36,454 nucleotides of DNA, from the IMG/VR virus record IMGVR_UViG_3300025151_000124, positions 1 to 36,454 of that record, one strand, 5' to 3'. Numbering within the stretch: position 1 is the first letter of the stretch; each line of letters opens with the position of its first letter. Under the pieces are notes generated by a model. It saw only the letters and a program-made list of their open reading frames with translations, was not told the origin of the DNA and ran no database searches. The translations under genes and the position numbers were made by a program. Source of the stretch: a virus. Positions 13,412 through 26,769 of this stretch are shown here, one piece after another.

Positions 13412-13422
13412 ACTAGACTGTC

Positions 13423-15123: not shown

Positions 15124-15144
15124 ATCTGGCTTTCTCCTTTAGTT

Positions 15145-15623: not shown

Positions 15624-16300
15624 CACTCACTCCCTCTCAAAGCTTTCCAACTATTAGGATATAACTTTTTACAGTGTTTGTCAATACCCTTGGCTATCTC
15701 TCTCGTCTCCTCCTGACTGTCCTCGGCCATCCTCAGGTTACAGATACGAGAGAAGGCGTAGAGAGAACCTGTCCAGAACCACTGCGTATAAGCTGCCTGT
15801 GGTAGTACCATCCTAGCTTGCTCAGGACACACCCCCTTTTCGAGAAGATAGTCATAGGTCCACAAAGCTCTATCAACAGACGATTTGTAAGGGTCCGTCA
15901 TTAGATTTTTAGGGTTGATGTCTATGATCTCATTAGACGATCCCTGCTTCTTGTCCTCTGAGTATTTCCGCCACACCTCTGGAAAGAAAAACTCAGGAGT
16001 AGTATCGACATATCTACGGGATATCTCGTTCCAAGTTAGACCCACCTGATGCTTACCCAGTTGTCTGGCTACGAAGATGGGAGCCTTAATTCTAAACTGT
16101 AACTGTGGGTGGCTGAAGGGGGACCAGTGTTTGTGCTTGGCAAGGTATTCTATAAGATCAACGTCTTTGGGCTTCATGTATTTTTTTATATTACCATCGT
16201 CATTCCAAAAGTTCCACTCGGAACCTTTATCAAATGAAACTCTGGCAGCATTTACGACACTGAGATCAGAACCCATGTTGTCTATCAGTTCAACATTCAT
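15623..16300 (-). CDS. thyX: Flavin-dependent thymidylate synthase
   Basis: 225 residues. It makes dTMP from dUMP using methylene-tetrahydrofolate, FAD and NADPH. Family regions present are AKHKHWSPFSHPQLQFRIKAPIFVARQL (about residues 54-81), the signature region KHQVGLTWNEISRRYV (83-98), and QAAYTQWFWTGSLYAFSRICNLRM near the C-terminus. The canonical ThyX motif RHRxxSxNExSxR is altered: RHR is replaced by KHQ and one extra residue lies before NE-S. S94 and R96 are kept. The gene overlaps its upstream neighbour (ATGA) and its downstream neighbour (TGATG), so it is part of the nucleotide operon with dCMP deaminase further upstream and NrdJ downstream. Confidence 0.92.
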   Translation of the reverse strand: MNVELIDNMGSDLSVVNAARVSFDKGSEWNFWNDDGNIKKYMKPKDVDLIEYLAKHKHWSPFSHPQLQFRIKAPIFVARQLGKHQVGLTWNEISRRYVDTTPEFFFPEVWRKYSEDKKQGSSNEIIDINPKNLMTDPYKSSVDRALWTYDYLLEKGVCPEQARMVLPQAAYTQWFWTGSLYAFSRICNLRMAEDSQEETREIAKGIDKHCKKLYPNSWKALRGSE

Positions 16301-16500
16301 TCGTCGTACTCCCTATTATACAACATAACGTCGTCAAAGTCAAGGTCATAAATTTCCCTCAGGACTTCCATACGATCCTCAAGAACATCTGAGAACCTCT
16401 CTAGAATATCCTGACTAGACAACCCCAACAACTCGCACAACAGAGGAGGATCAGTCACCTCTGATAGTCTCTCAATGAACTCTTTAATTGGTAAAGGCAT
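16297..16500 (-). CDS. Small acidic helical protein, unknown
   Basis: 67 residues starting at the ATG at 16500 (GGAGG 7 bases upstream). A longer start at 16545 lies inside the endonuclease gene and has no better RBS. Sequence: PLPIKEFIERLSEVTDPPLLCELLGLSSQDILERFSD then VLEDRMEVLREIYDLDFDD. This is the pattern of a short acidic helical protein that I remember from many marine phages next to replication genes, without a name. Overlaps endonuclease I by 17 bases upstream and ThyX by 4 bases downstream. Function unknown. Confidence 0.7.
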   Translation of the reverse strand: MPLPIKEFIERLSEVTDPPLLCELLGLSSQDILERFSDVLEDRMEVLREIYDLDFDDVMLYNREYDE

Positions 16501-16882
16501 CTGTAATATCCTCCAAGGTATACCACTTGAACTTCTCCTTCTCACACCACTCAGCCATCGTCATCTTGCTACCCTTCCTAAGTTTCTTGTCGGGGTTATA
16601 TAGGAGGAAGACTAGCTGTTTCTTCTTGGGGAGGCTATCCCTAATGGCTTTGTATTTCTGAGTGTCCCCTACTCTAAAGAAACCTTTAGCTTCCACTAGA
16701 ATATCAATCCTGTTCTTGTCGTTACGACCTACAAAATCAGGGATGTAATTCCGATGGACGACGTAGGGGACTTTCTCAGGTTCGTACTTACAGTGATCCT
16801 TTAGAAGGAGTCCCGCTGTTTTCTCAAAGTTATTCCGATACTTCGGAGGCACTTTTCTTAGACCGAGTAGCTTTGGTTTCAC
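16484..16882 (-). CDS. T7 endonuclease I-like Holliday junction resolvase
   Basis: 132 residues with a GTG start. It resembles T7 gp3: LGLRKV at the N-terminus, E20 (NNFEKTAG), KVPYVVHRNYIPDF with D49, then ILVEAKGFF with E64 and K66, and SKMTMAEWCEKEKFKWYTLEDI at the end. E20, D49, E64 and K66 correspond to the catalytic residues E20, D55, E65 and K67 of T7 endonuclease I. It cuts branched DNA, resolving replication and recombination intermediates before packaging. The GTG start is preferred because the N-terminal LRKV segment and the position of E20 both match T7. It makes an unusual 53-base overlap with the upstream DUF1737 gene, and its RBS is poor. Confidence 0.88.
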   Translation of the reverse strand: MKPKLLGLRKVPPKYRNNFEKTAGLLLKDHCKYEPEKVPYVVHRNYIPDFVGRNDKNRIDILVEAKGFFRVGDTQKYKAIRDSLPKKKQLVFLLYNPDKKLRKGSKMTMAEWCEKEKFKWYTLEDITDAFTN

Positions 16883-17021
16883 GGGTCAGAGCCTGAGTCA
16901 TGCCGCCTGTCTGGGACACGAAGGGACTACCTTGGAGAGTCCAGCCGTCATTCAACAGTGCAGTTATCTGTTCCTCAAAGCGATCATGTCGGGGCGTGTT
17001 GACTACTTTAAATTCAATCAT
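16830..17021 (-). CDS. DUF1737-like small protein
   Basis: 63 residues. The pattern EFKVVNT ... FEEQITALLNDGWTLQGSPFVSQTGGMTQALTR matches DUF1737, a small alpha/beta domain with a conserved L-DGW--QG ... QAL core found in bacteria and phages; molecular function unknown. The C-terminus is a short basic/serine tail. Start ATG at 17021 has AGGAG 9 bases upstream and overlaps the exonuclease stop by 8 bases. Its last 53 bases are shared, in another frame, with the start of the endonuclease I gene. Confidence 0.7.
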   Translation of the reverse strand: MIEFKVVNTPRHDRFEEQITALLNDGWTLQGSPFVSQTGGMTQALTRETKATRSKKSASEVSE

Positions 17022-17925
17022 AGTTGTTCTCCTCTTGGTCTAGGTTGATCTCAGGGTAGGCATTACCCTTTCGATTTTTGGGTACGTTTACGACGGTAGT
17101 TAAGAACTTGGGACCAGAGCCAGTATGAAAGGCGCGGACTTCTGGATAACAAATTCTCTTGTATTGGCAGTAAGAGCAGGTAGTACAGAGTTTTAAGTTT
17201 CCTGATTTCCCATCCTCCTGTGGAGAGTAACATCTTGAAGGTCGGTCTTCCTGCTTTACGCACTTTTTTACGTGTTCTATCCTTTCCTCTATGCTTCCTG
17301 AAAAATGCTCGTGCATTGGATCGTCCTCATTATCAAGGTCGTACTCAAGGACAGCAAGCTTACCGCTGTCACGATCCATTGCCAGCCATGCCCACTTACG
17401 TTCTCCCTCTGCATGAGCATACGCCTTGATCTGATCGACATAACCGAAGTCGTCGTTGGCTGCTAGTGTACGGTCCTTGAACTTCATGAGTCCGTACTTG
17501 GTGGTGGACTTAACGTCAGTTACAATGCCATTGATCTTACAGTCCATATGACCCACCACACCACCGACAGATACAGCCTTTTGCTCATCGGTTACCTCAT
17601 GTCCAGCCAGACGGGTGAACAGAAGAAGCATCTCTTCGATCATGTGTCCGTACATAAACTTGATGAGGGTGTGGGGCTTGATACGCTCACCACGGTAGCC
17701 GTTGTATGCGAACCACTGAACCAAATCGTTCTTGCCTACAGATGAGAGGCGAAGCTTACGTCCGTCACGGGGACCGGAGTCAGGGAGAAACTCCTTACGC
17801 ATGATGTCCTTCATTGCCTCGCCGAACTTGTCAATCTCAGCTTCAACATCGACACCCTTGTCAGAGTTACGATCCTTCATGAGTTGATAAATGTCATCGA
17901 CTAGTGTTGATAAAGTTTTACTCAT
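17014..17925 (-). CDS. PD-(D/E)XK exonuclease with Fe-S-type cysteine cluster (RecB/Cas4-like)
   Basis: 303 residues. The nuclease core is visible: GHMIEEML (H94), GHMDCKINGIVTDVKS with D128, D137 and K139 as the metal-binding D...D-x-K, and VDQIKAYAHA (Q165) as the QxxxY-type motif. Six cysteines follow: C222, C232, C247, C250, C253 and C259 (KKC ... RCYS ... LCTTCSYCQYKRIC). A subset would bind an iron-sulphur cluster as in AddB/Cas4-like nucleases. It probably degrades host DNA or processes ends for recombination, filling the role of T7 gene 6 exonuclease. Start at 17925 overlaps the upstream 52-residue gene (ATGA). The family class is well supported; the specific role is inferred. Confidence 0.8.
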   Translation of the reverse strand: MSKTLSTLVDDIYQLMKDRNSDKGVDVEAEIDKFGEAMKDIMRKEFLPDSGPRDGRKLRLSSVGKNDLVQWFAYNGYRGERIKPHTLIKFMYGHMIEEMLLLFTRLAGHEVTDEQKAVSVGGVVGHMDCKINGIVTDVKSTTKYGLMKFKDRTLAANDDFGYVDQIKAYAHAEGERKWAWLAMDRDSGKLAVLEYDLDNEDDPMHEHFSGSIEERIEHVKKCVKQEDRPSRCYSPQEDGKSGNLKLCTTCSYCQYKRICYPEVRAFHTGSGPKFLTTVVNVPKNRKGNAYPEINLDQEENNYD

Positions 17926-18080
17926 GATAGTTCATAACCTCCCTCGTCAATATCACACGGAATGATAACTTTAAAATCATCTTCCTGTAGATGCTGCCTG
18001 ATTTCTCGAATGGCTTTCCAGATTTCTTTTAGCTCATTGAGTTCTTTTGTTTCTCCTACGAGTGTATCAACGGTATTCAT
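17922..18080 (-). CDS. 52-residue small protein, unknown
   Basis: Read directly from the minus strand: ATG at 18080, TGA at 17924-17922. GGAG lies 7 bases before the start, and the stop overlaps the exonuclease ATG as ATGA. The N-terminal two thirds is a predicted charged helix (TLVGETKELNELKEIWKAIR, EIRQHLQED), followed by a short hydrophobic strand (FKVIIPCDI) and an acidic end. The gene fills the space between its neighbours exactly, which is the main reason to call it real. Family not recognised. Confidence 0.7.
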   Translation of the reverse strand: MNTVDTLVGETKELNELKEIWKAIREIRQHLQEDDFKVIIPCDIDEGGYELS

Positions 18081-18081
18081 T

Positions 18082-18282
18082 TCAATCTCCTGTCTTTATT
18101 ACGTTTAACAAATCTCTGAGGTCGTCAAAACCAAACCACTCATGCTCTCTTTTCAGGAAACACCACCTATTTTTTACAGGAGCAATTCGAACCGTGTCTT
18201 CTACTATGAAGTTGTTTTTCTTTTCTACGTAACTCAACCCTAAGGTATCAAACTGTGATCGTCTAAACTCTCTGGTTGACAT
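18082..18282 (-). CDS. 66-residue small protein after DNA polymerase, unknown
   Basis: Begins at the ATG at 18282 with GGAG 6 bases upstream, one base gap to the next gene. Reads as a mixed alpha/beta protein (RREF/RSQFDTLGLSYVEKKNN, FIVEDTVRIAPVKNRWCFLKREHEWFGFDDLRDLLN). No family recognised. Its leader is the 31-base gap after the polymerase stop, which holds one complete copy of the TGGGAYRTCCCA palindrome 18 bases before the ATG. Expression of this gene and those after it may therefore be separately controlled. Confidence 0.65.
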   Translation of the reverse strand: MSTREFRRSQFDTLGLSYVEKKNNFIVEDTVRIAPVKNRWCFLKREHEWFGFDDLRDLLNVIKTGD

Positions 18283-18299
18283 GAGTATCTCCTATTTTA

Positions 18300-18311
18300 T
18301 GGGACGTCCCA
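18300..18311. promoter_or_regulatory. TGGGAYRTCCCA palindrome, copy 1
   Basis: TGGGACGTCCCA, a perfect 12-bp palindrome. It lies between the polymerase stop (18314) and the RBS of the 66-residue gene. On the minus strand it reads AATCT before and TAAAAT after the core, as in other copies. It is likely a protein-binding site or phage promoter element. Confidence 0.6.
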
Positions 18312-18313
18312 GA

Positions 18314-20044
18314 TTAGTGGGTAGCTGCCCAGTTGTCTCCGACTTTGTACTCACCGTCCAGTGGGCATCTCAAATCCAACCTGTCACCCGCCGCCTTGAT
18401 ACACTCTACTGCCAGCCATCCGAACTTTTCTGCCTGAGTTTCCCTGACTTCAACTTGAAACTCATCATGGATATTACCAACAAAGCTGTAGTCTATACCA
18501 TGTATGATAGCATACTCATTCAGTATTGTCAATGCTTTCTTCATAACTATTGCACCGGCTGACTGTAAAAGTGTATTCAAGGCTGCGTGTTCACTTCGGA
18601 TTATCAAACGTCTCCCGTCTAGTCCTCTGAGGTGGCCTCGCTTGGTTGCCCGTATGACTCGTTCCCGTAGAGTTCGAAGAGATGGTGTGTTAGAGAGAAA
18701 CTTTTCTTTAAGTTCTGCTCCGTCTCTGCGAGAACCGCCGACAATGCTTCCGATCTTGGCATCTCCTGCGCCGTAGAGGAAAGCATAGATAAAAGTTTTA
18801 GCGTTGTCTCTTGTTGAAAGGCCAGCAGCTTTCTGGTTTGCTGTATGTACGTCTCCGTTCGTGACTTCATGTGTGTACTCCTCATCGTTCATGTAGTGGG
18901 CTAACATTCTAAGTTCCAAGCCAGCAGCATCTACACCTACAAGCTTGAAACCTTTCGGTACTGTCCAGCATTCGCGGCACTCAGTACCATACGGAGAGTA
19001 AGAGGCAGGAACCTGTGCCATGTTAGGGTTACTGTGCGTCATCCGTCCCGTGACTGCACCAATCGTATTAACCCTGCCATGCACTCTGCCATCTTCCTCC
19101 ACCGCTTCTATCCAAGACTGAACTTGTGCTGATCTCTTCTGTAGCAGTAGATACTCAGCGATTAGTTTGGCTTCGGGTATGTCCACCTCAGATAGAATAC
19201 TCTCGTCAACAATGGCATGACCTTTCTCCGTGAAAGAAGAAGGCTCCCACCCGTAGAACTTCAGGTGCCTACCGATCTGTTGACGTGAACCTAGATTAAA
19301 CTCGGGCCAATCTATGCGTGAAAATGGACCGCCAACGGTATCGATACCATCCCCAAGAAAGCGAAGACCAACAGAACTAAGGGAACCGTCCTTCTTAGTT
19401 TTTGGATGGACTTCCTTAACAAATACCGGTAGCGGCGTGAACCTTTTATGTACTTCATCTTCAACCTCCATACTTCTCTGTTTCAAACGTGCTTGGATAT
19501 CGAAAGCTTTCTCAAGGTCAAGCACCCAACCCTTGCGTTCCTGTTGAGACACGATCTCCTGAACCTTGTGCTCCAGTTCGACGGACTCACCGGGAAACTG
19601 AGCAAGCCTTTCGCAGAGGGTAGTGTACAACTTGGCAGTTACCTCTACGTCACGCTCACAATACTTAATCATCTCATCAGATAGCTTAGTCCAATCATCG
19701 TGGTCACCCTTCTCAAAGTGAAGACGCTCACCCCATGCTCTCAGAGAATGTCCTCCGTCTAGTTGTGGGTTGAATAGACGAGAGAGAACCAGAGTGTCGA
19801 TTACCTGTACGTTATCGAACGAGATACCAAGGTGTTCCTCTAGAACTATCCTATCAAAATTAATGATATTATGACCGATAACAATATCCACTCCATCAAT
19901 CTCCTCCTGTATCTGTGAAGTTTCTGAATATGGTTTCAAAAAATTCCTCTTGATTTTCGTAGTCAGTTCCATCGTACCTACCATCCATACCTTGCTTACG
20001 GGCAAAGCGGTAGTTTCGATATCTAGTATAAGCTTCTTTGTCAT
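18314..20044 (-). CDS. Family A DNA polymerase with 3'-5' exonuclease, T7-like
   Basis: 576 residues. Exonuclease motifs: Exo I LILDIETT (D8, E10), Exo II GHNIINFD (D64), Exo III YCERDVEVT (D132). Polymerase motifs: A GVDAAGLELRMLAHY (D372), B RDNAKTFIYAFLYGAG (residues 412-427), C GNIHDEFQV (H526, D527). Residue Y420 matches T7 Y526 (E. coli F762 position). It is about 128 residues shorter than T7 gp5, so the thioredoxin-binding thumb insertion is probably absent. It copies phage DNA with the helicase and SSB encoded upstream. The start is fixed by the Exo I motif at residues 5-12, yet it lies 149 bases inside the HNH gene, in a different frame, with a weak RBS (GGTGAG). Confidence 0.93.
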   Translation of the reverse strand: MTKKLILDIETTALPVSKVWMVGTMELTTKIKRNFLKPYSETSQIQEEIDGVDIVIGHNIINFDRIVLEEHLGISFDNVQVIDTLVLSRLFNPQLDGGHSLRAWGERLHFEKGDHDDWTKLSDEMIKYCERDVEVTAKLYTTLCERLAQFPGESVELEHKVQEIVSQQERKGWVLDLEKAFDIQARLKQRSMEVEDEVHKRFTPLPVFVKEVHPKTKKDGSLSSVGLRFLGDGIDTVGGPFSRIDWPEFNLGSRQQIGRHLKFYGWEPSSFTEKGHAIVDESILSEVDIPEAKLIAEYLLLQKRSAQVQSWIEAVEEDGRVHGRVNTIGAVTGRMTHSNPNMAQVPASYSPYGTECRECWTVPKGFKLVGVDAAGLELRMLAHYMNDEEYTHEVTNGDVHTANQKAAGLSTRDNAKTFIYAFLYGAGDAKIGSIVGGSRRDGAELKEKFLSNTPSLRTLRERVIRATKRGHLRGLDGRRLIIRSEHAALNTLLQSAGAIVMKKALTILNEYAIIHGIDYSFVGNIHDEFQVEVRETQAEKFGWLAVECIKAAGDRLDLRCPLDGEYKVGDNWAATH

Positions 20045-20321
20045 GGATCAGTGTCTCACCGTTTTTCAAAGCTACGTGTTCTAACCTATGGCAGTTACTA
20101 CATAGTATAGCACACTTCGCTGCTTCTTGAAAGAGTTCTTTGTTCAACCTGTGTGACCTCCACTTGGAAGACTTCAATCCAAACTCCTTCTTCGACGGAT
20201 CACGATGGTGGAACTCAAGAACCTCCTCGGGATACTTACCTCCGCACACCTCACAGGCATAGTTGGTACGCATCTTTATGTACAAGGATCGGTTCAGTTT
20301 TCCTAGATCAGAATTCTTCAT
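19896..20321 (-). CDS. Free-standing HNH endonuclease overlapping polymerase start
   Basis: 141 residues from the ATG at 20321 (GGAG 6 bases upstream, inside the helicase end); a longer frame to 20399 lies within the helicase gene. The HNH fold is clear: CEVCGG (zinc Cys pair), LEFHHRDPSKKEF (catalytic His pair), then CAILCSNCHRLEH (second Cys pair and His). Basic residues follow (YTRYRNYRFARKQG). It probably nicks or cuts DNA as a homing endonuclease. Such genes often lie beside polymerase genes and spread into phages lacking them. It overlaps the helicase by 14 bases and the polymerase by 149 bases, so the last 49 codons share DNA with the polymerase exonuclease I region. Confidence 0.85.
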   Translation of the reverse strand: MKNSDLGKLNRSLYIKMRTNYACEVCGGKYPEEVLEFHHRDPSKKEFGLKSSKWRSHRLNKELFQEAAKCAILCSNCHRLEHVALKNGETLIHDKEAYTRYRNYRFARKQGMDGRYDGTDYENQEEFFETIFRNFTDTGGD

Positions 20322-21966
20322 CAGCAACTCCATGCACTTCAGGCGCAGCACCGGCCACCATACGTCCAGTGTCGATCTCGTAGTACAGCCAGCCAGCATG
20401 TCCTGTCCGTCCTGTGCGACGGCACTTCACAAGCTGCACCTTGGTACAGTTACGGGTGTAATCATCGTCAGACAGCTTGTCGCGGCTGAGTAGCAGCGTG
20501 TTGAATGCTATCTGGTTGATAGACCCAGACCCTTTCATGTCGTACTCGTTGACATCGTGAGGGTCTTTGACGCTGGGCTTACGCAGGTGGGACACGATGA
20601 TGATAGCCGCGTTAGTTTCCTTGGCAATCTTCAGGCACCTGTCCATGAAGTCATCGATCAATCCGTTCTCATTGGACTGCACCGCAGCCTGTAGAGGATC
20701 AAGGATAATCACTTCGCAGTCTAGTCCCTTGATGAGGTAGCGCATACGAGAGAACAGGTCGTCAATGTCAGATGATCCCATGTGGTCATCAATATGAATC
20801 CTGTCGCTCTCCTTCACCTCTTCGTAGAACTTACGGTAACCACTGTAGTCCCGTTCCTCCTCCGGTATCTGCTTGATGTTCACACCACCCACGACACTGA
20901 CCACGTTCTCCGTAGTCTCACCGATGGATGACTCAAGGAACACCGCGCCGATCCTTCGGTTCGTCTCCTTGTACATACCGTACAACAGGTTGGTAACGAA
21001 GGTGGTCTTACCTACAGATGTTAAGGCACCGATCACGGTCACCTCCCCTGCCCCCATGCCACCGTTCATCATCTTGTTGAGCGTACCAAACGAGGAAGGG
21101 AAGGGGATAATCTCCGCCTTGCCACGGTTCACGAACGCATCCCAACAACTCTCGTCAGACAGTGAGATGACACCGGCAGGTTTATATTCCTCCGCTCCCC
21201 ACCATGCCTTCACGAACTGCTGCACCTTACCACGCTGTAGCATCTCTCCTGCATCCTTGAGTGGGAGGGACACCACCTTGGCCTTGCCCGGTGAGAAGAT
21301 GGACATCACTTCCTGAGATGCTTTCTTTCCAGCCGCATCATTATCAAAGCAGATGACTACCTTCTCGAACGTCTCAAGCCACTCCAGACTTTCCTTGATG
21401 TCCTTCGATGCTGCCGCTGCACCACGCTTCAGACTGACGACGGGATACTTCCCATCGAACATCTCAGCCACAGCCATCGCATCTAACTCACCTTCGGTAA
21501 CAGTCACGAACTTACCGCCCTTGCTCCAGACATTCTGTCCGAACAGACCAGTGCCTTCCATTGTACCTGTGGTATAGAACTCCTTGCTTGGACAGCTACG
21601 TACTTTGGTTCCGACTACATCACCACCCTGTTCGTGGTAGGGGTAGTGGTGCTTGAGTGTCTGACCAGTTTCTCTGTCATGCTCCAGCGTCACGCCGTAC
21701 TTCTCAACGATCCGCTGGGATATCTTCCTGTCACTAATTGGTCCTGATACACCAACCATTTCTAGTCCTCTCGTTTTATGGGATGATCCCAGATTTTCTG
21801 TGGGCAGTGTGGAGGGATCGACTGATCCCCCCGACACTACATGACCACACTTGAAGCAGTACCCATGCCCATCATCGTAGACTGCGAGGTTATCACCTGA
21901 CTTGTCCTCGCCGTTCTCTCTGCATGATGGACACGGAGCCTTGCCAATGAAGGTGGACTCCCCCAT
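20308..21966 (-). CDS. Primase-helicase, T7 gp4-like
   Basis: 552 residues. The order is: a zinc-binding domain with C12, C15, C37 and C40; a TOPRIM primase domain with TVTEGELDAMAV (E158, E160) and VVICFDNDAAG (D208, D210); and a RecA/DnaB-type helicase with Walker A GALTSVGKTTF (313-323), Walker B CEVIILDPLQAA, and SHLRKP and SGSINQ sensor-like segments. It unwinds DNA and makes primers at the fork. The C-terminus is acidic and ends in Phe (ADEEF), as in T7 gp4, where the tail docks on the polymerase. Start ATG overlaps the SSB stop (TGATG). An internal ATG at codon 70 (21759) with AGGA 7 bases before it would give a 483-residue form without the zinc domain, matching T7 gp4B. Confidence 0.92.
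   Translation of the reverse strand: MGESTFIGKAPCPSCRENGEDKSGDNLAVYDDGHGYCFKCGHVVSGGSVDPSTLPTENLGSSHKTRGLEMVGVSGPISDRKISQRIVEKYGVTLEHDRETGQTLKHHYPYHEQGGDVVGTKVRSCPSKEFYTTGTMEGTGLFGQNVWSKGGKFVTVTEGELDAMAVAEMFDGKYPVVSLKRGAAAASKDIKESLEWLETFEKVVICFDNDAAGKKASQEVMSIFSPGKAKVVSLPLKDAGEMLQRGKVQQFVKAWWGAEEYKPAGVISLSDESCWDAFVNRGKAEIIPFPSSFGTLNKMMNGGMGAGEVTVIGALTSVGKTTFVTNLLYGMYKETNRRIGAVFLESSIGETTENVVSVVGGVNIKQIPEEERDYSGYRKFYEEVKESDRIHIDDHMGSSDIDDLFSRMRYLIKGLDCEVIILDPLQAAVQSNENGLIDDFMDRCLKIAKETNAAIIIVSHLRKPSVKDPHDVNEYDMKGSGSINQIAFNTLLLSRDKLSDDDYTRNCTKVQLVKCRRTGRTGHAGWLYYEIDTGRMVAGAAPEVHGVADEEF
21757..21776 (-). promoter_or_regulatory. Internal start and RBS for a short helicase form
   Basis: On the minus strand GAGAGGACTAGAA precedes the ATG of codon 70 (21759-21757), giving an AGGA 7 bases from the start. 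This is better than many true starts in the genome. Initiation here would omit the zinc-binding primase domain, as in the T7 4A/4B pair. A palindrome copy lies 20 bases upstream. Confidence 0.55.
21779..21791. promoter_or_regulatory. TGGGAYRTCCCA palindrome, copy 2 (13-bp variant, inside helicase gene)
   Basis: TGGGATGATCCCA has one extra central base compared with the 12-bp copies. Flanks on the minus strand (AATCT before, TAAAA after) match copies 1 and 3. It encodes the stretch around LGSSHK in the primase linker, a region with little constraint, and lies 20 bases before the internal start codon. Confidence 0.55.
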
Positions 21967-22337
21967 CAGAAGTCCTCGTCGTCCGCTCCGACTTGTTCCG
22001 CCATCTCAAGAACTTTGATCTTCTTGAAGTACGGAGCAACGCCGTGCTGCGGGTGAGGCTTGCCCGGTTCCCACATCACCCGAACCTTGGAGCCGTACGG
22101 AATGTACTTGGAGATTTGATCTCCGTCCGCATCAAGCACCGGGAACCCGGAGAACTTGGTGACGAACTTACGCTGCGGCTGGTTCTTGTACTCACGGAGT
22201 TTGACCCCCTCCTGTGCGAGCTTGGCTGCTTCGTCAGGCTCCAGCGTGAGGACGATGGAATACTTCCCAGTGTCCTGTCCGTTGTAGCGTTCCGTCTCTT
22301 CGAGGTTCGAAAAAGCAACTGTTCCTTCTGTAATCAT
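21966..22337 (-). CDS. Single-stranded DNA-binding protein with acidic Phe-ending tail
   Basis: 123 residues from the ATG at 22337; GAGGAG lies 8 bases upstream, whereas the TTG at 22346 is too close to it. The body is beta-rich (EGTVAFSNLEETERYNGQDTGKYSIVLTLEP, FVTKFSGFPVLDADG, YIPYGSKVRVMWEPGKPH), typical of phage OB-fold SSB proteins. The last residues are GADDEDF, an acidic tail ending in Phe as in T7 gp2.5, where this end contacts polymerase and helicase. It coats unwound strands at the fork. The gene is immediately upstream of primase-helicase (TGATG overlap), and a sigma70-like promoter (22388-22416) lies in the 75-base gap before it. Confidence 0.75.
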   Translation of the reverse strand: MITEGTVAFSNLEETERYNGQDTGKYSIVLTLEPDEAAKLAQEGVKLREYKNQPQRKFVTKFSGFPVLDADGDQISKYIPYGSKVRVMWEPGKPHPQHGVAPYFKKIKVLEMAEQVGADDEDF

Positions 22338-22387
22338 ATTCAACACTCCTCTATTGTGTCATACATTGCGTTCATACTACACCCACT

Positions 22388-22416
22388 ATACTACAGGAAA
22401 AAATCTCCACTGTCAA
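22388..22416 (-). promoter_or_regulatory. Sigma70-like promoter before SSB
   Basis: On the minus strand: TTGACA (22416-22411), a 17-base spacer, then TAGTAT (22393-22388). The -35 is perfect and the -10 matches 4 of 6. It stands in the longest gap between replication genes and would drive ssb, primase-helicase and polymerase using host RNA polymerase. No direct evidence beyond the match. Confidence 0.5.
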
Positions 22417-22586
22417 CTACCTTTCTCAATCGAAAACTTTTTAACGTAGACACCATTCCACCTGTCATCTCCTAGCTGGGTAACGTAGTCCCGATATTCC
22501 AACGCCATCTCCTCAGACGTAAAGATTTTCTGAACCTTGGAACTGTCGTACCCGTCATATGAAAAGACAATCCATACCTTATCCAT
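22413..22586 (-). CDS. 57-residue protein, DUF7336-like
   Basis: Start at the ATG at 22586 with GAGGGGTG 7-10 bases upstream; a GTG nine bases earlier is possible. It overlaps the preceding gene by 8 bases. The sequence opens KVWIVFSYDGYDSSKVQKIFTS-EEMALEYRDYV, a beta strand, a loop, then a helix beginning with a sorting of residues typical of small phage and bacterial proteins that report as DUF7336. I am only moderately sure of that name. The C-terminal strand GVYVKKFSIEKG would complete a small alpha/beta fold. Role unknown. It is the last gene before the ssb promoter. Confidence 0.55.
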   Translation of the reverse strand: MDKVWIVFSYDGYDSSKVQKIFTSEEMALEYRDYVTQLGDDRWNGVYVKKFSIEKGS

Positions 22587-22749
22587 CGTAGTCACCCCTC
22601 ATGTACTCCTTAAGTTCCTCATCGACAGCCTCTGCTGCCAACTTGCTCTTCTGACTACGAAAGACCTTCCGCTTGTTGAACTTGTGCATATCACGAGCGA
22701 CAGGGTTCTTCTTCTTAGGTGCCTTACGACGACCATCTTTGATAGACAT
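22579..22749 (-). CDS. 56-residue very basic protein, unknown
   Basis: ATG at 22749, TAA at 22581-22579. AAGG lies 8 bases before the start. The N-terminal half is strongly basic (KDGRRKAPKKKN, HKFNKRKVFRSQKSK) and the last 20 residues are acidic (EAVDEELKEYM). A nucleic-acid-binding or ribosome/RNA-associated peptide is possible, but no family is recognised. It is the first gene after a gap of 103 bases containing a palindrome copy (21 bases upstream of the ATG) and a long hairpin, so it probably opens a new transcript. It overlaps the next gene by 8 bases. Confidence 0.65.
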   Translation of the reverse strand: MSIKDGRRKAPKKKNPVARDMHKFNKRKVFRSQKSKLAAEAVDEELKEYMRGDYDG

Positions 22750-22769
22750 AACCAATCCTTTCTAAATTA

Positions 22770-22781
22770 TGGGACATCCCA
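22770..22781. promoter_or_regulatory. TGGGAYRTCCCA palindrome, copy 3
   Basis: TGGGACATCCCA, perfect palindrome, 21 bases before the ATG of the basic 56-residue gene. On the minus strand it is preceded by AAATC and followed by TAATTT. It lies 10 bases from a 14-bp hairpin (22792-22843). Confidence 0.6.
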
Positions 22782-22791
22782 GATTTCTTAA

Positions 22792-22843
22792 GTATCCTAA
22801 GGAGAATAACATTAATGATTAATAATCTATCTCCTTAGGATAC
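22792..22843 (-). promoter_or_regulatory. Long inverted repeat containing two TCCTWAGGA elements
   Basis: GTATCCTAAGGAGA (22792-22805) pairs perfectly with TCTCCTTAGGATAC (22830-22843): a 14-bp stem with a 24-base AT-rich loop. It follows the stop of the zinc-ribbon gene by ten bases and could end that transcript, though no T-run follows. Each arm contains a 9-base near-palindrome TCCTWAGGA, also found beside the main plus-strand promoter (26716-26734), so a protein-binding role is equally likely. Confidence 0.55.
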
Positions 22844-22852
22844 CTTAGTATC

Positions 22853-23032
22853 TTACACGTCTTCCTCCTCATTGTCAAGCACTGAGTTTACATCCAGAAT
22901 GAAATCGAACTCATCCGTGTTTTCATAGATGGCACCGATGCACTTGTTGCAGGTGTCCATGTGATTACCGTCGATATCCTTTCGAAGTAATTCTGAATTG
23001 TTTAGTTTAACATCACAGATTTTACAGCGCAT
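22853..23032 (-). CDS. 59-residue zinc-ribbon protein
   Basis: ATG at 23032, TAA at 22855-22853. The N-terminal half holds two Cys pairs, C3-x2-C6 (RCKICDVK) and C28-x2-C31 (DTCNKCIG), spaced as in a small zinc ribbon. The C-terminal half is acidic (YENTDEFDF ... LDNEEEDV). It may contact nucleic acid or a host polymerase subunit, but this is not shown. GAGG lies 9 bases upstream, and the start directly follows the previous stop (TAA-ATG), so translation is coupled. It is the last gene before the hairpin and palindrome at 22.8 kb. Confidence 0.75.
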   Translation of the reverse strand: MRCKICDVKLNNSELLRKDIDGNHMDTCNKCIGAIYENTDEFDFILDVNSVLDNEEEDV

Positions 23033-23245
23033 TTACTTATCCTCTTCTTTATTCTTTACTTGATCCTCGAAGACCCTCAGCCGTGCCGCTGCGTCACATA
23101 GCTTGGCATAATCAGACATGAACATATCTCCATCACATTCCCACATTGTCCGAACGGGACCGTTTACCAGCGGCACAAGTCGCAATAGAAACTCCTCGGC
23201 TGTAATTTTTTCGTCGTAAGTCCAGTTGTATTTCTTAGGCATCAT
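23033..23245 (-). CDS. 70-residue protein, unknown
   Basis: I start it at the ATG at 23245, overlapping the upstream stop (ATGA), with AAGGAG 5 bases before. The adjoining ATG at 23242 is equally possible (spacing 8). A frame reaching 23311 lies inside the upstream gene. Sequence is mostly helical and ends acidic/basic (MPKKYNWTYDEKITAEEFLLRLVPLVNG ... CDAAARLRVFEDQVKNKEEDK). No family recognised; position between a DNA-repair-like gene and the zinc ribbon gives no firm clue. Confidence 0.65.
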   Translation of the reverse strand: MMPKKYNWTYDEKITAEEFLLRLVPLVNGPVRTMWECDGDMFMSDYAKLCDAAARLRVFEDQVKNKEEDK

Positions 23246-23754
23246 GCAATCTCCTTCATTCGTGCGGCCATGCCGATGGTATACCAGATTGGTTCTGGTG
23301 TAAACTGCCACCGGGCCATGTAAGATTTCTCGTTGATGTAGTAGTTACGGTACGCCATGACGGTATTCTCAGGCACCTTGCAGTAGTCATCCATGCACTG
23401 AGGTGGATCAGTGAAGGGACCGTTTCGTAATTCATATGGACAGGTGCCCAAGTCCCTCACCATACCGATCCTCTCGGTCTTGTGAACCTTTCCGTATCTC
23501 TTCGTATACTCCTTACATAAACTATTAAGAAGGTTCCACAACCATATGTAATTACTACGGTTTTCCCTAGCCCACACTGCACTAGGGTGGTTCTTGTGCG
23601 TTGCCTTGTAGCACTCAATGCTAGGCTCCCCGTCGATCTCATGGTGCGCCGTGCTGAGTAACTGGGCAGTCTCCAGTATCATCTTGACCACGTGTTTGTC
23701 GCAGTGCATCTCAGCGCAGCGTTTTGGGTTCTCATGTAGGTAGAATATATTCAT
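23242..23754 (-). CDS. Pyrimidine-dimer glycosylase-like conserved phage protein
   Basis: 170 residues. The conserved start NIFYLHENPKRCAEMHCDKHVVKMILETAQLLSTAHH, then YKATHKNHPSAVWARENRSNYIWLW, CKEYTKRYGKVHK, and FTDPPQCMDDYCK form a well-known marine-phage family. Databases often annotate it as pyrimidine dimer DNA glycosylase (Pyr_excise-like), because the His/Glu-rich N-terminus recalls T4 endonuclease V. I am confident of the family pattern but not of enzymatic activity, since several members are longer than T4 DenV and untested. If active it would repair UV damage, useful in surface water. It starts in an ATGA overlap with dCMP deaminase. Confidence 0.65.
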   Translation of the reverse strand: MNIFYLHENPKRCAEMHCDKHVVKMILETAQLLSTAHHEIDGEPSIECYKATHKNHPSAVWARENRSNYIWLWNLLNSLCKEYTKRYGKVHKTERIGMVRDLGTCPYELRNGPFTDPPQCMDDYCKVPENTVMAYRNYYINEKSYMARWQFTPEPIWYTIGMAARMKEIA

Positions 23755-24206
23755 ACGTTTACAACCTCCATCTTAGCTTGGACGACATGAACGCCGCCCT
23801 CAGTTAGAAACTCCAGACCCTCCGTGCTTCTGTATTCTTCTGAATATATAACACACATGATCCCGGCTTGCAAGATTAACTTGGCACACCCCATGCAGGG
23901 CGCATGAGTACATATCAGTGTCGCACCTTCTCCGCTCTCAGTACACCTAGCAAGCTTGGCTATCGCATTGGACTCCGCATGTAGAACCTGAGGCTTCGTC
24001 ACTAGTCTTGGATGTTCATCAACGTCCGTGCTGTATAGCTCAGACTCGCAATTATTGTCCCAGCCTGAGGGTGTACCGTTGTATCCGATGGATATAATCC
24101 TCTCGTCCTTCACAATGACACACCCCACTTTCAACTTTCGTGCCGTGCTGCACTCAGCGAATGCGTAGGCAGTTTCCATATATGCAACTAAATGTTTCTG
24201 TTTCAT
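23751..24206 (-). CDS. Deoxycytidylate deaminase
   Basis: 151 residues from the ATG at 24206 (GGAG 8 bases upstream); a longer frame from 24245 lies over the small membrane gene. The zinc-dependent deaminase signature is complete: HAE (H76, E78) in VLHAESNAIAKLAR, and PCMGC (C104, C107) in CTHAPCMGCAKLILQAG. GYNGTPSGWDNNCE (residues 41-54) is typical of dCMP deaminases as opposed to cytidine deaminases. It converts dCMP to dUMP, the substrate of ThyX encoded on the same arm, and thus feeds dTTP synthesis together with NrdJ. The stop overlaps the next start (ATGA). Confidence 0.92.
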   Translation of the reverse strand: MKQKHLVAYMETAYAFAECSTARKLKVGCVIVKDERIISIGYNGTPSGWDNNCESELYSTDVDEHPRLVTKPQVLHAESNAIAKLARCTESGEGATLICTHAPCMGCAKLILQAGIMCVIYSEEYRSTEGLEFLTEGGVHVVQAKMEVVNV

Positions 24207-24310
24207 AGGAATATCTCCACATAAGCAAGTAAAACTATAATCCAACAGAAGAATATACGCTCCTCTACTTTCCAGTGCTTACATATCTTCTTCCACATTA
24301 TTCCCAACAT
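24203..24310 (-). CDS. 35-residue membrane micropeptide
   Basis: Read from the minus strand: ATG at 24310 overlaps the upstream TAA (TAATG), and TGA at 24205-24203 overlaps the deaminase start (ATGA). The 108 bases between its neighbours are therefore fully occupied. The sequence has a short basic N-terminus (MWKKICKHWKVEER) and one hydrophobic span (IFFCWIIVLLAYVEIFL), which predicts a single-pass membrane peptide with the N-terminus in the cytoplasm. Possible roles include early host takeover or superinfection exclusion, but nothing in the sequence decides. Confidence 0.65.
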   Translation of the reverse strand: MLGIMWKKICKHWKVEERIFFCWIIVLLAYVEIFL

Positions 24311-24564
24311 TATCCCCAATCCTTTCTATCGTTTTCTTCACGCCACCCCCGCAAATACTCTGCAATCTGGGCCGCAGTCATCATCTCACGCGGTACCTTG
24401 TACCCCTTGCCGGTTCCATTAGGCCACCAGTGTGGGCTGTAGTTGCGATTGTAGAACCTGTCCGCTGATCCTCTATCGTATGGGCTTCCATGTGCATGTT
24501 GCATTGCGATTTTTTCTCCTGCTTTCCGTAGTTTCGAAATGATTTCCTGAGTTTCGTAGTTCAT
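24310..24564 (-). CDS. 84-residue protein carrying duplicated EIISKLRKAGEKI segment
   Basis: Starts at the ATG at 24564 with AAGGTG 6 bases upstream, four bases after the previous stop. The N-terminus (NYETQEIISKLRKAGEKIAMQ) contains a segment also found at the C-terminus of the upstream gene, encoded by a 39-base duplication. The rest has an aromatic, Arg/Gly-rich core (GSADRFYNRNYSPHWWPNG, GYKVPREMMTAAQIAEYLRGW). The last part, MTAAQIAEYLRGWREENDRKDW, is a clear helix. No known family. Confidence 0.6.
   Translation of the reverse strand: MNYETQEIISKLRKAGEKIAMQHAHGSPYDRGSADRFYNRNYSPHWWPNGTGKGYKVPREMMTAAQIAEYLRGWREENDRKDWG
24509..24547. repeat. 39-base direct repeat, copy 1
   Basis: Matches 24579-24617 with one mismatch (position 24535 against 24605), offset 70 bases. 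In both copies the minus strand encodes EIISKLRKAGEKI, here near the N-terminus of the 84-residue gene. Confidence 0.9.
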
Positions 24565-24568
24565 GTCT

Positions 24569-24832
24569 TCACCTTTCAATTTTTTCTCCTGCTTTCCGTA
24601 GTTTTGAAATGATTTCCCATGCCTTCGTAATTTTCTGAGGTCTTGAAGAATATATGTTCCCCGCTTCATGGTCAACCCACTCATCCTCCGATAGACCGCC
24701 TGCTATCTGTTCAGCCTTGTCATGAAGGAAACACATATCTGTTTGGTCTTCCATTTCTCGTTCAGTTTCTATCGTAACTGTAACCGCCTGCTTCACAATT
24801 CTGAAGACAGTCACTTCATATTGATAAGTCAT
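24569..24832 (-). CDS. 87-residue protein ending in the duplicated segment
   Basis: Start at the ATG at 24832 with GAGGAGG 8-9 bases upstream; a longer frame to 24877 would run into the palindrome and the preceding gene. The N-terminal half is beta-rich (YQYEVTVFRIVKQAVTVTIETEREMED), then CFLHDKAEQIAGGLSEDEWVDHEAGNIYSSRP, with the ending KAWEIISKLRKAGEKIER. The last 18 residues repeat a segment of the next gene, so the end of this gene or the start of the other was probably produced by tandem duplication. Not recognised as a family. A palindrome copy lies 26 bases before the start. Confidence 0.6.
   Translation of the reverse strand: MTYQYEVTVFRIVKQAVTVTIETEREMEDQTDMCFLHDKAEQIAGGLSEDEWVDHEAGNIYSSRPQKITKAWEIISKLRKAGEKIER
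24579..24617. repeat. 39-base direct repeat, copy 2
   Basis: Second copy of the repeat at 24509-24547, one mismatch. On the minus strand it encodes the C-terminus of the 87-residue gene, in the same frame relative to the repeat as copy 1. Confidence 0.9.
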
Positions 24833-24848
24833 TCGTCGTCCTCCTCTT

Positions 24849-25115
24849 TCAATTTTCTGGGACATCCCATGTTTCACAGATACTTTCTATCATAGACTGG
24901 TCCAGTTGTCTACAGTGATTTTCACCACCATATAGCTTCAGATATTTGTTGATATGTTTCGACGTGGTGCGACTGAAGTATTCCGTTGTTCTGAATGGTC
25001 CCTTGCAATCCCAGCCAGCGACAGGGGTTTCATAACTGAATAATATCGAGACGTTTGCCTTGGTATTCTGAAGTTCAGTCATGTTCGAACCGAGTTGTTT
25101 TATAGACATATTCAT
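24849..25115 (-). CDS. 88-residue conserved phage protein (SYxTPVAG / TTSKHINKYL type)
   Basis: Start at the ATG at 25115, after GGAAA 10 bases upstream in a leader shared with the next upstream gene. The core NVSILFSYETPVAGWDCKGPFRTTEYFSRTTSKHINKYL is a pattern I remember from many phages as a small domain of unknown function (DUF8033-like; name uncertain). It may be a single alpha/beta unit. The C-terminus (TWDVPEN) is encoded by a copy of the palindrome at 24858-24869, so coding and regulatory use overlap. Function unknown. Confidence 0.6.
   Translation of the reverse strand: MNMSIKQLGSNMTELQNTKANVSILFSYETPVAGWDCKGPFRTTEYFSRTTSKHINKYLKLYGGENHCRQLDQSMIESICETWDVPEN
24858..24869. promoter_or_regulatory. 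TGGGAYRTCCCA palindrome, copy 4
   Basis: TGGGACATCCCA, perfect palindrome, in the last codons (W-D-V-P) of the 88-residue gene and 26 bases upstream of the next ATG at 24832. Minus-strand context ACATGGGATGTCCCAGAAAA. Confidence 0.55.
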
Positions 25116-25136
25116 CGTTCAGTTTCCTTTCATGTT
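25112..25136 (-). repeat. 25-base leader repeat, copy 1
   Basis: These 25 bases, spanning RBS and start codon of the 88-residue gene, are identical to 25335-25359, which spans the RBS and start codon of the 60-residue membrane gene. The duplicated leader contains GGAAA and a 4-codon mini-frame ending 3 bases before the true ATG. Confidence 0.9.
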
Positions 25137-25139
25137 TTC

Positions 25140-25151
25140 TGGGACATCCCA
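25140..25151. promoter_or_regulatory. TGGGAYRTCCCA palindrome, copy 5
   Basis: TGGGACATCCCA, perfect palindrome, in the 40-base gap between the membrane gene stop (25156) and the start of the 88-residue gene (25115), 25 bases before that ATG. Minus-strand context AAATC before and GAAAA after. Confidence 0.6.
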
Positions 25152-25155
25152 GATT

Positions 25156-25338
25156 TCACAGCATGTCTTCCAATTGCCATGCGGCGAACGCTATCATACT
25201 CAGAACGCTACCCGCCGTCAAGCCTATCAGGGGTATTAGTCCGAAATTTTCTGGACCGATCACCATCAGGGATATCAGGCCGCATGTCACGGCTACGAAT
25301 GCCGATATGATACCGGCGATTTTTACAAGCTTAGTCAT
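25156..25338 (-). CDS. Small membrane protein with two transmembrane segments
   Basis: 60 residues. Two hydrophobic spans (about residues 7-27, IAGIISAFVAVTCGLISLMVI; and 32-54, FGLIPLIGLTAGSVLSMIAFAAW) are joined by a short PEN turn, with a positive N-terminus (MTKLVK) and an acidic C-terminus (QLEDML). That predicts a hairpin membrane protein with both ends in the cytoplasm. Start ATG at 25338 uses the duplicated leader (25335-25359). Early-arm location suggests a host membrane function, but no homology is recognised. Confidence 0.65.
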   Translation of the reverse strand: MTKLVKIAGIISAFVAVTCGLISLMVIGPENFGLIPLIGLTAGSVLSMIAFAAWQLEDML

Positions 25339-25359
25339 CGTTCAGTTTCCTTTCATGTT
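25335..25359 (-). repeat. 25-base leader repeat, copy 2
   Basis: Identical to 25112-25136. Both copies cover the Shine-Dalgarno region and start codon, so the two genes should be translated with similar initiation. Confidence 0.9.
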
Positions 25360-25376
25360 GACAAGTGAACTCTATA

Positions 25377-25404
25377 GAACCCCCTGACGTGTGTCAAGGG
25401 GTTC
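25377..25404 (-). terminator. Hairpin after the first early gene block
   Basis: GAACCCC (25377-25383) pairs with GGGGTTC (25398-25404), and TGAC with GTCA inside, after one C-A mismatch; the loop is GTGT. It begins 9 bases after the stop of the 209-residue gene, so it may end or attenuate that transcript before the membrane gene. No T-run follows on the minus strand. Confidence 0.55.
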
Positions 25405-25412
25405 CGTAGAGG

Positions 25413-26042
25413 TCACTTGAAGGCATTCATTCCAAGGGACTGTAGCAATTCCTCTCCCGTAAGTTCCTTAGTCTCCCTCGGCAACGGATCAAGTTCCTCG
25501 GCTACTGCCAGCAACTGGGCATTCGTAGCGTCAGGGATGTGCTTCATGATCGCAGACATGATGTCATTGATGCTAATCGTCGGGGTTTCCTCGGTGGCTT
25601 CCTCGGTGGTTTCCTCGGTGGTTTCCTCGGTATCTTCCTCGGTATCCTCGGTAGCTTCCTGAGAAGCCTTTTCTTCAGCTTTCTGAGCTTTCTGGATAGC
25701 CTTCCGCATGGCATCAATCTTCCGCCATCCGTTCGTCTCTCCCTCGGTCACGACCGCATCGAAGTTCTCAGATACGAACTTGATGTCCCGAACGTGGTTC
25801 GAACGGTCCGCCTGAGATAGACCGACGAACATGTCCTGAAGCGTCTGACTAGCGTCTATCATCTTGACAGTCAGAGACTTCGTAGGCCATGCGCCATTCG
25901 TCTCCTTCCAGATGATGTTAGCAGCGAACGGGTGTACTTCCAGCACCAGCTTCCGTGCTACCTTCGCATCGGTCTTGACTGCCTTCACCAGTTCCTTGTT
26001 GATGGTTTCGGCGGTCACTTCCACGGTTTCGATCTTCGACAT
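25413..26042 (-). CDS. Early acidic protein with Glu-Glu-Thr-Thr repeats, unknown
   Basis: 209 residues, no recognised family. Residues 1-120 look like a compact alpha/beta domain (ETINKELVKAVKTDAKVARKLVLEVHPFAANIIW ... LTVKMIDASQTLQDMFVGLSQADRSNHVRDIKFV). Next comes a charged helix (RKIDAMRKAIQKAQKAEEKAS), then an acidic linker of EETT/EEAT units encoded by 12-base repeats (25587-25655). The final ~50 residues form a small helical domain (INDIMSAIMKHIPDATNAQLLAVAEELD) with a pattern like a helix-hairpin or SAP-type fold. The first large gene of the minus arm, it is a good candidate for an early regulator or host-takeover factor, but nothing assigns it. Confidence 0.6.
   Translation of the reverse strand: MSKIETVEVTAETINKELVKAVKTDAKVARKLVLEVHPFAANIIWKETNGAWPTKSLTVKMIDASQTLQDMFVGLSQADRSNHVRDIKFVSENFDAVVTEGETNGWRKIDAMRKAIQKAQKAEEKASQEATEDTEEDTEETTEETTEEATEETPTISINDIMSAIMKHIPDATNAQLLAVAEELDPLPRETKELTGEELLQSLGMNAFK
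25587..25655 (-). repeat. 12-base tandem repeats encoding Glu-Glu-Thr-Thr/Ala/Asp
   Basis: Five units of TTCCTCGGTNNN (plus strand) at 25587, 25599, 25611, 25623 and 25635, then a truncated 9-base unit. In frame, so length changes keep the gene intact and alter only the acidic linker. Confidence 0.9.
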
Positions 26043-26044
26043 GA

Positions 26045-26221
26045 TTATACTTCCTCTTTCAGTGTTTCGAATTGATACCCTAGTTCCTTGGCTAGATCAA
26101 CAGTGTCCTTCGTCAACGTCGTGGTTCCTGCTATTTTCGCCAGTGTTCTGGACGCTGAGCATACGGGATATATCCGACGGTTTCCGAATTCGTTTCTGAT
26201 TTCAACTATACAGTTCAACAT
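26045..26221 (-). CDS. 58-residue early protein, unknown
   Basis: I choose the ATG at 26221 (AAGGA 6 bases upstream); an ATG two codons earlier (26227) lies directly on the RBS. The sequence is alpha/beta: LNCIVEIRNEFGNRRIYPVCSASRTLAKIAGTTTLTKDTVDLAKELGYQFE. The C-terminal helix TKDTVDLAKELGYQFETL and the R-IYPVCS---LA-I pattern are seen in small phage proteins without a name. First gene of the minus arm, next to the control region, two bases before the following start. Confidence 0.6.
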   Translation of the reverse strand: MLNCIVEIRNEFGNRRIYPVCSASRTLAKIAGTTTLTKDTVDLAKELGYQFETLKEEV

Positions 26222-26293
26222 TTTCATTCCTTCGTTGCGTTGTCGATGAGCAGAACATAGGGAGAGGTTCTCAGGATGTCCATAGAAAAATTC

Positions 26294-26305
26294 TGGGATA
26301 TCCCA
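26294..26305. promoter_or_regulatory. TGGGAYRTCCCA palindrome, copy 6
   Basis: TGGGATATCCCA, perfect palindrome, 73 bases upstream of the first minus-arm gene. It is flanked on both sides by A/T runs (AAAAATTC and TTTTTTTC). Confidence 0.6.
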
Positions 26306-26360
26306 TTTTTTTCTGAATATCCCCCAAAGTGTGACAAATATGCAACAGTTTCCTGTATAT

Positions 26361-26366
26361 ATTATA
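26361..26366 (-). promoter_or_regulatory. Possible -10 element for the minus arm
   Basis: TATAAT on the minus strand. At 17 bases upstream the hexamer is AACCAC, not a -35 consensus, and overlaps iteron 1. Would need an activator if used. Weak. Confidence 0.3.
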
Positions 26367-26387
26367 AGGTGTCTGGTTCCGTTGTGG

Positions 26388-26522
26388 TTCTGAGGTGGTT
26401 CTGAGGTGGTCCTGAGGATTTCATGGGATGTCCCATATATCCATACTCAAGCACTCTTCCTTCTCTCGTTTTCTCCGGTAGTCCTGAGGCATTCCTGAGG
26501 TGATCCTGAGGTAGTCCTGAGG
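26388..26522 (+). repeat. Two clusters of TYCTGAGG iterons with exact 11-bp spacing
   Basis: Starts at 26388, 26399 and 26410 (cluster 1) and 26482, 26493, 26504 and 26515 (cluster 2). All neighbours within a cluster are exactly 11 bases apart, about one helical turn, so a bound protein would sit on one face of the DNA. The clusters flank palindrome copy 7. Units 1-2 read GGTTCTGAGG, the others TCCTGAGG. Confidence 0.85.
26423..26436. promoter_or_regulatory. TGGGAYRTCCCA palindrome, copy 7 (extended, between iteron clusters)
   Basis: ATGGGATGTCCCAT; the core is 26424-26435. It lies six bases after iteron 3 and about 45 bases before iteron 4. Confidence 0.6.
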
Positions 26523-26715
26523 TGGCGCTGTGGTTCTCAGGAAATCATGGGTGTTCTGTGGTAGACTAAGGTGGCCCGGGGGGGACCCACGACGCCACGC
26601 CATGTTATATATACCCTCATGACCACATGGGAAGCAATTTGGAGGTCCATGAATTAGATAATTAACTTAACTAAAGTACAACTTAAGGGTTGACTTTTGA
26701 GGTGAGGCGGGTTAT

Positions 26716-26740: not shown

Positions 26741-26769
26741 TTGACAAAAGAAGCTAAATATGTTATAAT
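26741..26769 (+). promoter_or_regulatory. Perfect consensus sigma70 promoter for the plus arm
   Basis: TTGACA (26741-26746), 17-base spacer, TATAAT (26764-26769): both boxes match the bacterial housekeeping consensus completely. It points to the structural arm and would start transcripts about 110 bases before the first small gene. No phage RNA polymerase gene is present, so host polymerase must be used. Confidence 0.8.

Follow-up and report, generated by a model that had tools for sequence, protein, structure and literature searches.

Background

Two kinds of short repeat dispersed through phage genomes bear the closest resemblance to the set analysed here. The SAS and ESAS of the cluster K mycobacteriophages are repeat sets to which the parts of the source account dealing with them attach neither a known trans-acting partner nor a published function: the SAS is asymmetric, 13 bp long, includes the Shine-Dalgarno (SD) sequence AGGAG and lies 3-7 bp from the start, and the ESAS are imperfect 17-bp inverted repeats with a spacer of 4-13 bp (PMC3203893). 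The stoperators of the cluster A phages are, according to the corresponding parts of their description, asymmetric 13-mers bound by a monomer of one phage repressor, which combines a helix-turn-helix (HTH) with a second domain and is proposed to act on both initiation and elongation and confers immunity (PMC9283540).

The repeats described here occur in an uncultured virus of bacteria, known from a record of 36,454 bases (IMG/VR IMGVR_UViG_3300025151_000124) that was analysed over its whole length and is referred to below as the window. Its minus-strand replication arm (13.4-26.6 kb) encodes a ribonucleotide reductase, a ThyX-like thymidylate synthase, a Cas4-domain exonuclease, PolA, an HNH-like ORF, a primase-helicase, a phrog_624 DNA-binding protein and a dCMP deaminase, and its plus strand the terminase, portal and capsid; no RNA polymerase gene was seen in the replication arm. 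The closest named matches of PolA are in the Pelagibacter phages HTVC103P, HTVC104P and HTVC115P (50-54%), and a megablast comparison of the replication arm with phages returned no match. At 26741-26769 on the plus strand lies a perfect TTGACA-N17-TATAAT, with TG ahead of the -10, directed toward the structural arm.

Judged against those parts of the published accounts that define the mycobacteriophage repeats, the present set is distributed like both and lacks a defining feature of each, so that it is closest to the ESAS repeats and the stoperators yet a member of neither. As with SAS and ESAS, the repeats occupy the non-structural half and precede the starts of some of the genes (63 of 102 distinct sites; all seven window copies lie in the replication arm), and as with ESAS they are inverted repeats with a consensus that varies from one sub-group to another. 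Unlike in SAS, the core has inverted-repeat symmetry and lies 17-27 nt from the start, with the SD outside it; unlike ESAS, it has exact 5-bp arms and loops of 2-3 nt that follow a Y(N)R rule in 78 of 80 sites; and unlike either, the set includes a copy at a leader promoter and has a candidate protein (PMC3203893, sections on these repeats). Cluster A stoperators, too, are numerous in promoter regions and in short gaps between genes, comparable to the leader and intergenic copies here, but the present design is symmetric, with inverted half-sites, and its candidate partner has no recognisable HTH (PMC9283540, sections on stoperators).

Seven copies in the replication arm

A first-pass annotation of the window had reported seven dispersed copies of a palindrome in the replication arm and none in the structural arm, and both statements hold. 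Exact TGGGAYRTCCCA was found at 18300, 22770, 24858, 25140, 26294 and 26424, against a mean of 0.00 in 100 dinucleotide shuffles, and the seventh copy is a 13-bp form, TGGGATGATCCCA, at 21779; all seven fall within 13400-26640, with none in the rest of the window (0.0008 by chance). The description of the exact copies as perfect 12-bp palindromes applies only to those at 18300 (centre CG) and 26294 (centre TA), the other four having 5-bp arms around a non-complementary CA or TG centre.

Read on the minus strand, site 1 (TGGGACGTCCCA; 18300..18311) ends 17 nt ahead of the ATG (18282) of a 66-aa ORF behind PolA; site 2, the 13-bp form (TGGGATCATCCCA on this strand; 21779..21791), lies within the primase-helicase, 19 nt ahead of an internal ATG; site 3 (22770..22781) is 20 nt ahead of the ATG (22749) of a small basic protein; site 4 (24858..24869) is 25 nt ahead of an ATG at 24832; and site 5 (25140..25151) is 24 nt ahead of the ATG (25115) of an 88-aa ORF (phrog_5643). 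These distances correct the 18-25 bases first reported. Two copies had been placed inside coding DNA; site 2 lies within a gene, and site 4 overlaps the end of an ORF at 24849-25115. The remaining two, site 6 (26294..26305) and, upstream of it, site 7 (26424..26435), are leader copies with no start within 60 nt of either. On the sense strand, the five sites that precede an ATG share a left flank of AAATC or AAACA type and a right flank KAAAA, followed by an SD-like stretch; the flanks of the leader copies differ from these.

Placement ahead of starts departs strongly from chance: four of the seven sites lie 14-30 nt ahead of an ORF start, against 0.265 expected under random placement (P 0.00004), a count in which site 3 was scored with a TTG start at 22755 (14 nt), though its SD-linked ATG is at 22749, and from which the internal ATG behind site 2 was excluded.

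Distribution and form of the sites in related viruses

A PolA search of IMG/VR gave 80 loci and a scan with the site pattern 57 stretches, single matches in the latter being, by estimate, about as frequent as expected by chance for a collection of that size. Loci whose PolA is 75-98% alike have as many as seven copies, and the full contigs labelled G007-G012, G017 and G018 carry 4 to 9. Relatives without the palindrome had been named in advance as evidence against a functional set, and here the outcome is divided: G013, G014 and the stretches of HTVC103P and HTVC115P lack the whole set, whereas others keep it, and G009, which is without the primase copy, still has six. Stretches (parts of records) from twelve named phages, HTVC103P, HTVC115P and ten others, contained neither TGGGA pairs nor a strong palindrome family, and in a literature search the four exact 12-mers turned up in three of the papers covered, none of which concerns phages to judge by its title.

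An unconstrained scan of the window and of 34 loci encoding relatives of the early protein discussed below showed that 78 of 80 distinct sites obey the rule TGGGA-Y(N)R-TCCCA, with 46 YR loops, 32 YNR loops and two exceptions, CC and TGAC. Arms with one mismatch occur at background frequency (18 against 15.4 expected, sd 2.3), and decayed copies are therefore not in evidence. Loop length is a genome-wide habit: it is three bases at all six sites of locus L013 and all five of L218, and two bases at six of the seven in the window. A larger set of 102 distinct sites was assembled by requiring a Y(N)R loop and orienting the sites by A-richness, and excluded the G001 loci, sites short of flank and, apart from twelve named exceptions, any locus that had fewer than two sites; key tests were repeated either without the loop rule, on 80 distinct sites, or with the start codon alone fixing the orientation, on 68.

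Placement at gene starts and at a putative leader promoter

An SD-like motif and a start codon follow 17-27 nt downstream of 63 of the 102 distinct sites, and the 68 sites oriented by start codon alone have the same range of spacing, with a mode of 20. The internal ATG behind site 2 is in-frame Met70 of the primase-helicase (21757..21759, minus strand), which together with SD-like DNA lies between the zinc and primase domains (window 21757-21966); we take it to be a possible start for a short form, as in T7 gene 4B, resembling the T7 4A/4B pair. This start region is kept in most close relatives whether the site is present or absent, and in 8 of the 20 proteins aligned the site itself forms an in-frame insertion in the linker preceding Met70. 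Because G009 retains the ATG and an AGGA-like SD where it has no site, its six sites being elsewhere, the internal start is independent of the site.

Behind site 6 is a sigma70-like promoter, TGGACA-N17-TATGTT (26254..26282, minus strand), recognised by consensus match only (9/12), whose -35-like hexamer lies 11 nt downstream of the site. Leader copies in kin are likewise followed by sigma70-like promoters at 5-22 nt: promoter scores of at least 9 were found at 15 of 19 hand-picked leader sites, compared with 7.2% of 3800 random positions. The mean promoter-like score is 9.34 for leaders, 8.03 for start-linked copies and 7.39 for random positions, the start-linked scores being only weakly promoter-like. 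The suggestion that the repeat is a promoter element could apply at most to the leader copies. The broader proposal of a dispersed regulatory set is supported by retention in relatives, confinement to the replication arm in the window, and placement before starts and beside the leader promoter.

The leader contains further conserved or repeated DNA. An element TGTTGCATATTTGTCACACT (26328..26347, minus strand) starts 42 nt before site 6, and its relative TGTTGTATAAATGTCACACT, at 4854 in L218, likewise starts 42 nt before the leader palindrome. Around site 7, at 26395-26522 on the minus strand, CCTCAG[AG]A occurs seven times, in two runs with 11-nt spacing, with an extra copy at 24640. A block ATTGCTTCCCATGTGG(T/G)CATGAGGG upstream of leader sites is kept in two clades (the window, L002, L008, L018, L026 and others), and a DnaA-box-like TTATCCACA is found close to leader sites in L026 and L120, with none in the window.

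A candidate partner protein

When the ORFs of the window were set against a panel of 20 further genomes or stretches, that at 25413-26042 (minus strand), the second early gene, stood out. Its 209-aa product has a helical N-domain, a very acidic Thr/Glu-rich linker and C-terminal helices, and has relatives in G003, G004 and G005 (33-42%) and in close kin with early arms; none was found in G013-G016, HTVC103P, HTVC115P, G001, G002, G006 or G017, among which G006, G015, G016 and G017 are fragments from which the gene may simply be missing. An IMG/VR search with an alignment of the protein gave 30 loci, and a deeper alignment 34. Exact sites are present in 33 of these 34 viral contigs (148 sites, compared with 0.119 expected), though these are not 34 independent events, because most of the contigs are close kin. 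The exception, L368/L195, has a one-mismatch form, TGAGATATCCCA, upstream of the gene, and the contig ends soon after.

The co-occurrence extends over several phage lineages. In L218, which was found by the DNA pattern, the 209-aa protein was the only one of 50 window ORFs to be matched (phmmer 8e-31), and one of its five sites lies before the relative's gene and one just behind it; the protein was likewise the only match among the 50 window ORFs in L195. The L218 gene has 55.7% G+C, compared with 40.0% in the rest, which suggests recent transfer. At profile level the terminase and portal of L218 and L195 fall in phrog_38 and phrog_1216, families that window proteins match too, so L218 and the window are distant rather than wholly unrelated.

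The view that the genome has no recognised cognate protein is correct as regards named families, but the 209-aa protein, co-occurring with the sites, is a candidate partner. AlphaFold predicts its domain to be all-helical (pLDDT 89.3), and Foldseek searches of the PDB and viral libraries gave nothing at E 0.001 or better; the best VIA-align Z was 2.9 for the domain and 2.7 for the whole model, with TetR-type rows at Z 2.9 and below, and no recognisable DNA-binding fold or HTH was found. By sequence there was no PHROG match at E 0.001, with weak member rows down to 0.0011; the best Pfam row (0.0019) was under its cut-off and the best in NCBIfam was 0.02, all of which we take to be composition matches of the acidic linker. 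The PDB gave one row (E 0.17), tblastn against 50,697 phage records no match at E 0.1, and the genome contigs collection no confirmed match. The HNH endonuclease (19896-20399) was also considered as reader of the sites, and is not favoured because its relatives occur in G013 and G016, both of which are without sites.

Some viruses have sites without the protein. The 39-kb contig G001 has ten TGGGACGTCCCA sites and no detectable relative, and G006 and G017, both of which start inside the early arm, have sites and no 209-aa protein. G002, also without a relative, has eight copies of a different pair, GCGAA-YNR-TTCGC, two of them closely followed by promoter-like DNA containing TTGAC. Comparison by hhalign of the 209-aa protein with the first early gene product of G001 and with a 148-aa product of G002, as possible distant relatives, gave probabilities of 0.3 and 0.2 percent, so kinship is not supported. 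Either other proteins read the sites of G001 and G002, or the assignment of the partner is incomplete. Besides the eight copies in L051/G002, GCGAA-YNR-TTCGC was seen in five copies in L317. Further repeats in the collection were TTAGT/ACTAA pairs in L261, L287 and L307, four per locus and separated by 3 nt that mostly read GTC, GAC or GCC, which are perhaps another dispersed operator set; and, at both contig ends of G009, 22-bp tandem repeats with inverted CCGTG/CACGG arms.

Half-sites in DNA or a hairpin in RNA

The sites might act in the transcript, and the first-pass annotation had offered an RNA-processing site among its explanations. Complementarity showed no excess at flank position 1 (41 of 102, against 45.7 expected) or in two-base loops (23 of 64, against 28.1), nor did it with start-codon-only orientation (36 of 68 against 37.8, and 9 of 34 against 11.8); three-base loops lean towards complementarity in the 102-site set (25 of 38 against 19.6, P 0.031), and give 23 of 34 against 20.1 (P 0.147) when oriented by start codon. 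As the arms never vary in the set searched, they are uninformative on co-variation. The predicted folding of the seven window sites is unexceptional (z -1.68 to +1.11), although the hairpin is formed in the minimum free energy fold at five of them. Positions -2/-1 on the left are mostly Y then C or A, and +1/+2 on the right mostly G or T then A, apparently one degenerate half-site, read twice. With neither co-variation at flanks and two-base loops nor unusual folding, an RNA-processing site is not supported, and we infer that the element consists of two DNA half-sites.

The same evidence bears on the idea of translational operators, in which an mRNA hairpin or single-strand motif 5' of the SD would be the target of an RNA-binding protein of the phage, possibly the 209-aa protein, in RegA-like control. 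The frequent location 17-27 nt ahead of SD-linked starts, the primase-helicase copy before an internal ATG, the five hairpins and the A-rich sense-strand flanks on both sides, which persist under start-codon-only orientation, would all suit such control. We nevertheless consider it rather unlikely, given the ordinary folding scores, the lack of co-variation and the copies without a link to a start: the two leader copies, an L218 copy that follows a gene and precedes a terminator-like hairpin, and several inside genes in G001. The last two also favour DNA.

Exchange of genes at the sites

The sites are joints at which early genes are swapped. When 69 start-linked distinct sites were grouped by upstream DNA and by downstream protein, with cut-offs of our own, 10 of 20 upstream groups were followed by several downstream gene families, and 9 of 25 downstream families were preceded by several upstream groups; the upstream end ATGATAGAAAGTATCTGTGAAACA and its close variants, for instance, are followed by five different genes.

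These multiple partners, together with a likeness to the mobile cassettes reported in T4-type phages, could mean that the element and its ribosome-binding site form a mobile boundary cassette with early gene swapping as its main role. The T4-type regulatory cassettes (promoter-early stem-loop) are said to lie at borders of module exchange and to carry their own promoter behind the stem-loop; the present element shares the position at gene borders with module exchange, but its start-linked copies carry a ribosome-binding site and only weak promoter-like scores. As a main role, gene swapping seems to us improbable: swaps may be a by-product of shared short sequence, and the strict arms, the Y(N)R rule, the lack of a surplus of decayed copies and the promoter-side leader copies call for a binding function. 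Such a role in exchange does not exclude regulation by a bound protein.

Proposed function

The explanation we favour, at about even odds, is that an early regulator encoded by the phage, most probably the 209-aa protein, uses the copies as dispersed operators. This protein would act as a dimer reading two inverted TGGGAY half-sites, either abutting or one extra base apart; its DNA binding, its dimerisation and its regulatory action, including the sign of that action, are all predicted. At the leader, the regulator would control the early promoter upstream of its own gene, while at start-linked copies within the operon it would be bound just ahead of the ribosome-binding site of the next gene, tuning expression either by blocking RNA polymerase, in the manner of a stoperator, or by governing how accessible the start is. 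Against this explanation count the ten G001 sites in a contig with no detectable relative of the protein, the failure to recognise a DNA-binding fold in the protein together with its very acidic linker, and the rarity of operators that lie deep within an operon and have no promoter of their own.

A phage protein might instead use the sites to organise or protect early-arm DNA, through condensation, partition or an origin, with no direct control of genes; the restriction of the sites to the replication arm in the window and the richness of the leader in CCTCAG[AG]A repeats are compatible with this, but it would not require the sites to keep exact distances from starts (17-27 nt) and from the promoter, and we regard it as very unlikely. 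Least plausible of all is recognition by the host, through one of its DNA-binding proteins or a host-wide factor, with several phages of a single host group using or avoiding the sites; although G001 and the window clade have the word in common and not the 209-aa protein, this would leave unexplained both the presence of the word in 33 of 34 contigs found through the protein and the sharing by L218 of just the protein and the word.

A more far-reaching form of the operator proposal, possible but in our view somewhat doubtful, is a portable regulon. The 209-aa protein would then represent a new all-helical family of early regulators, without a known fold, reading inverted TGGGAY half-sites at two spacings; its sites would form an operator and ribosome-binding-site module at early gene borders, and protein and sites would have moved together into distant phages. 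The GCGAA-YNR-TTCGC pairs of G002 would show the same design with a second specificity, read by another protein.

Conclusions

The sequence evidence implicates one small protein and one exact word of 12-13 bp. In other viruses the word mostly accompanies this unstudied protein, and the two are probably a small gene-control system able to move between viruses. If so, the protein would found a new family of phage DNA-binding proteins, its action would explain the timing of early genes in an arm in which no RNA polymerase gene is seen, and its operators would double as joints for the exchange of genes.
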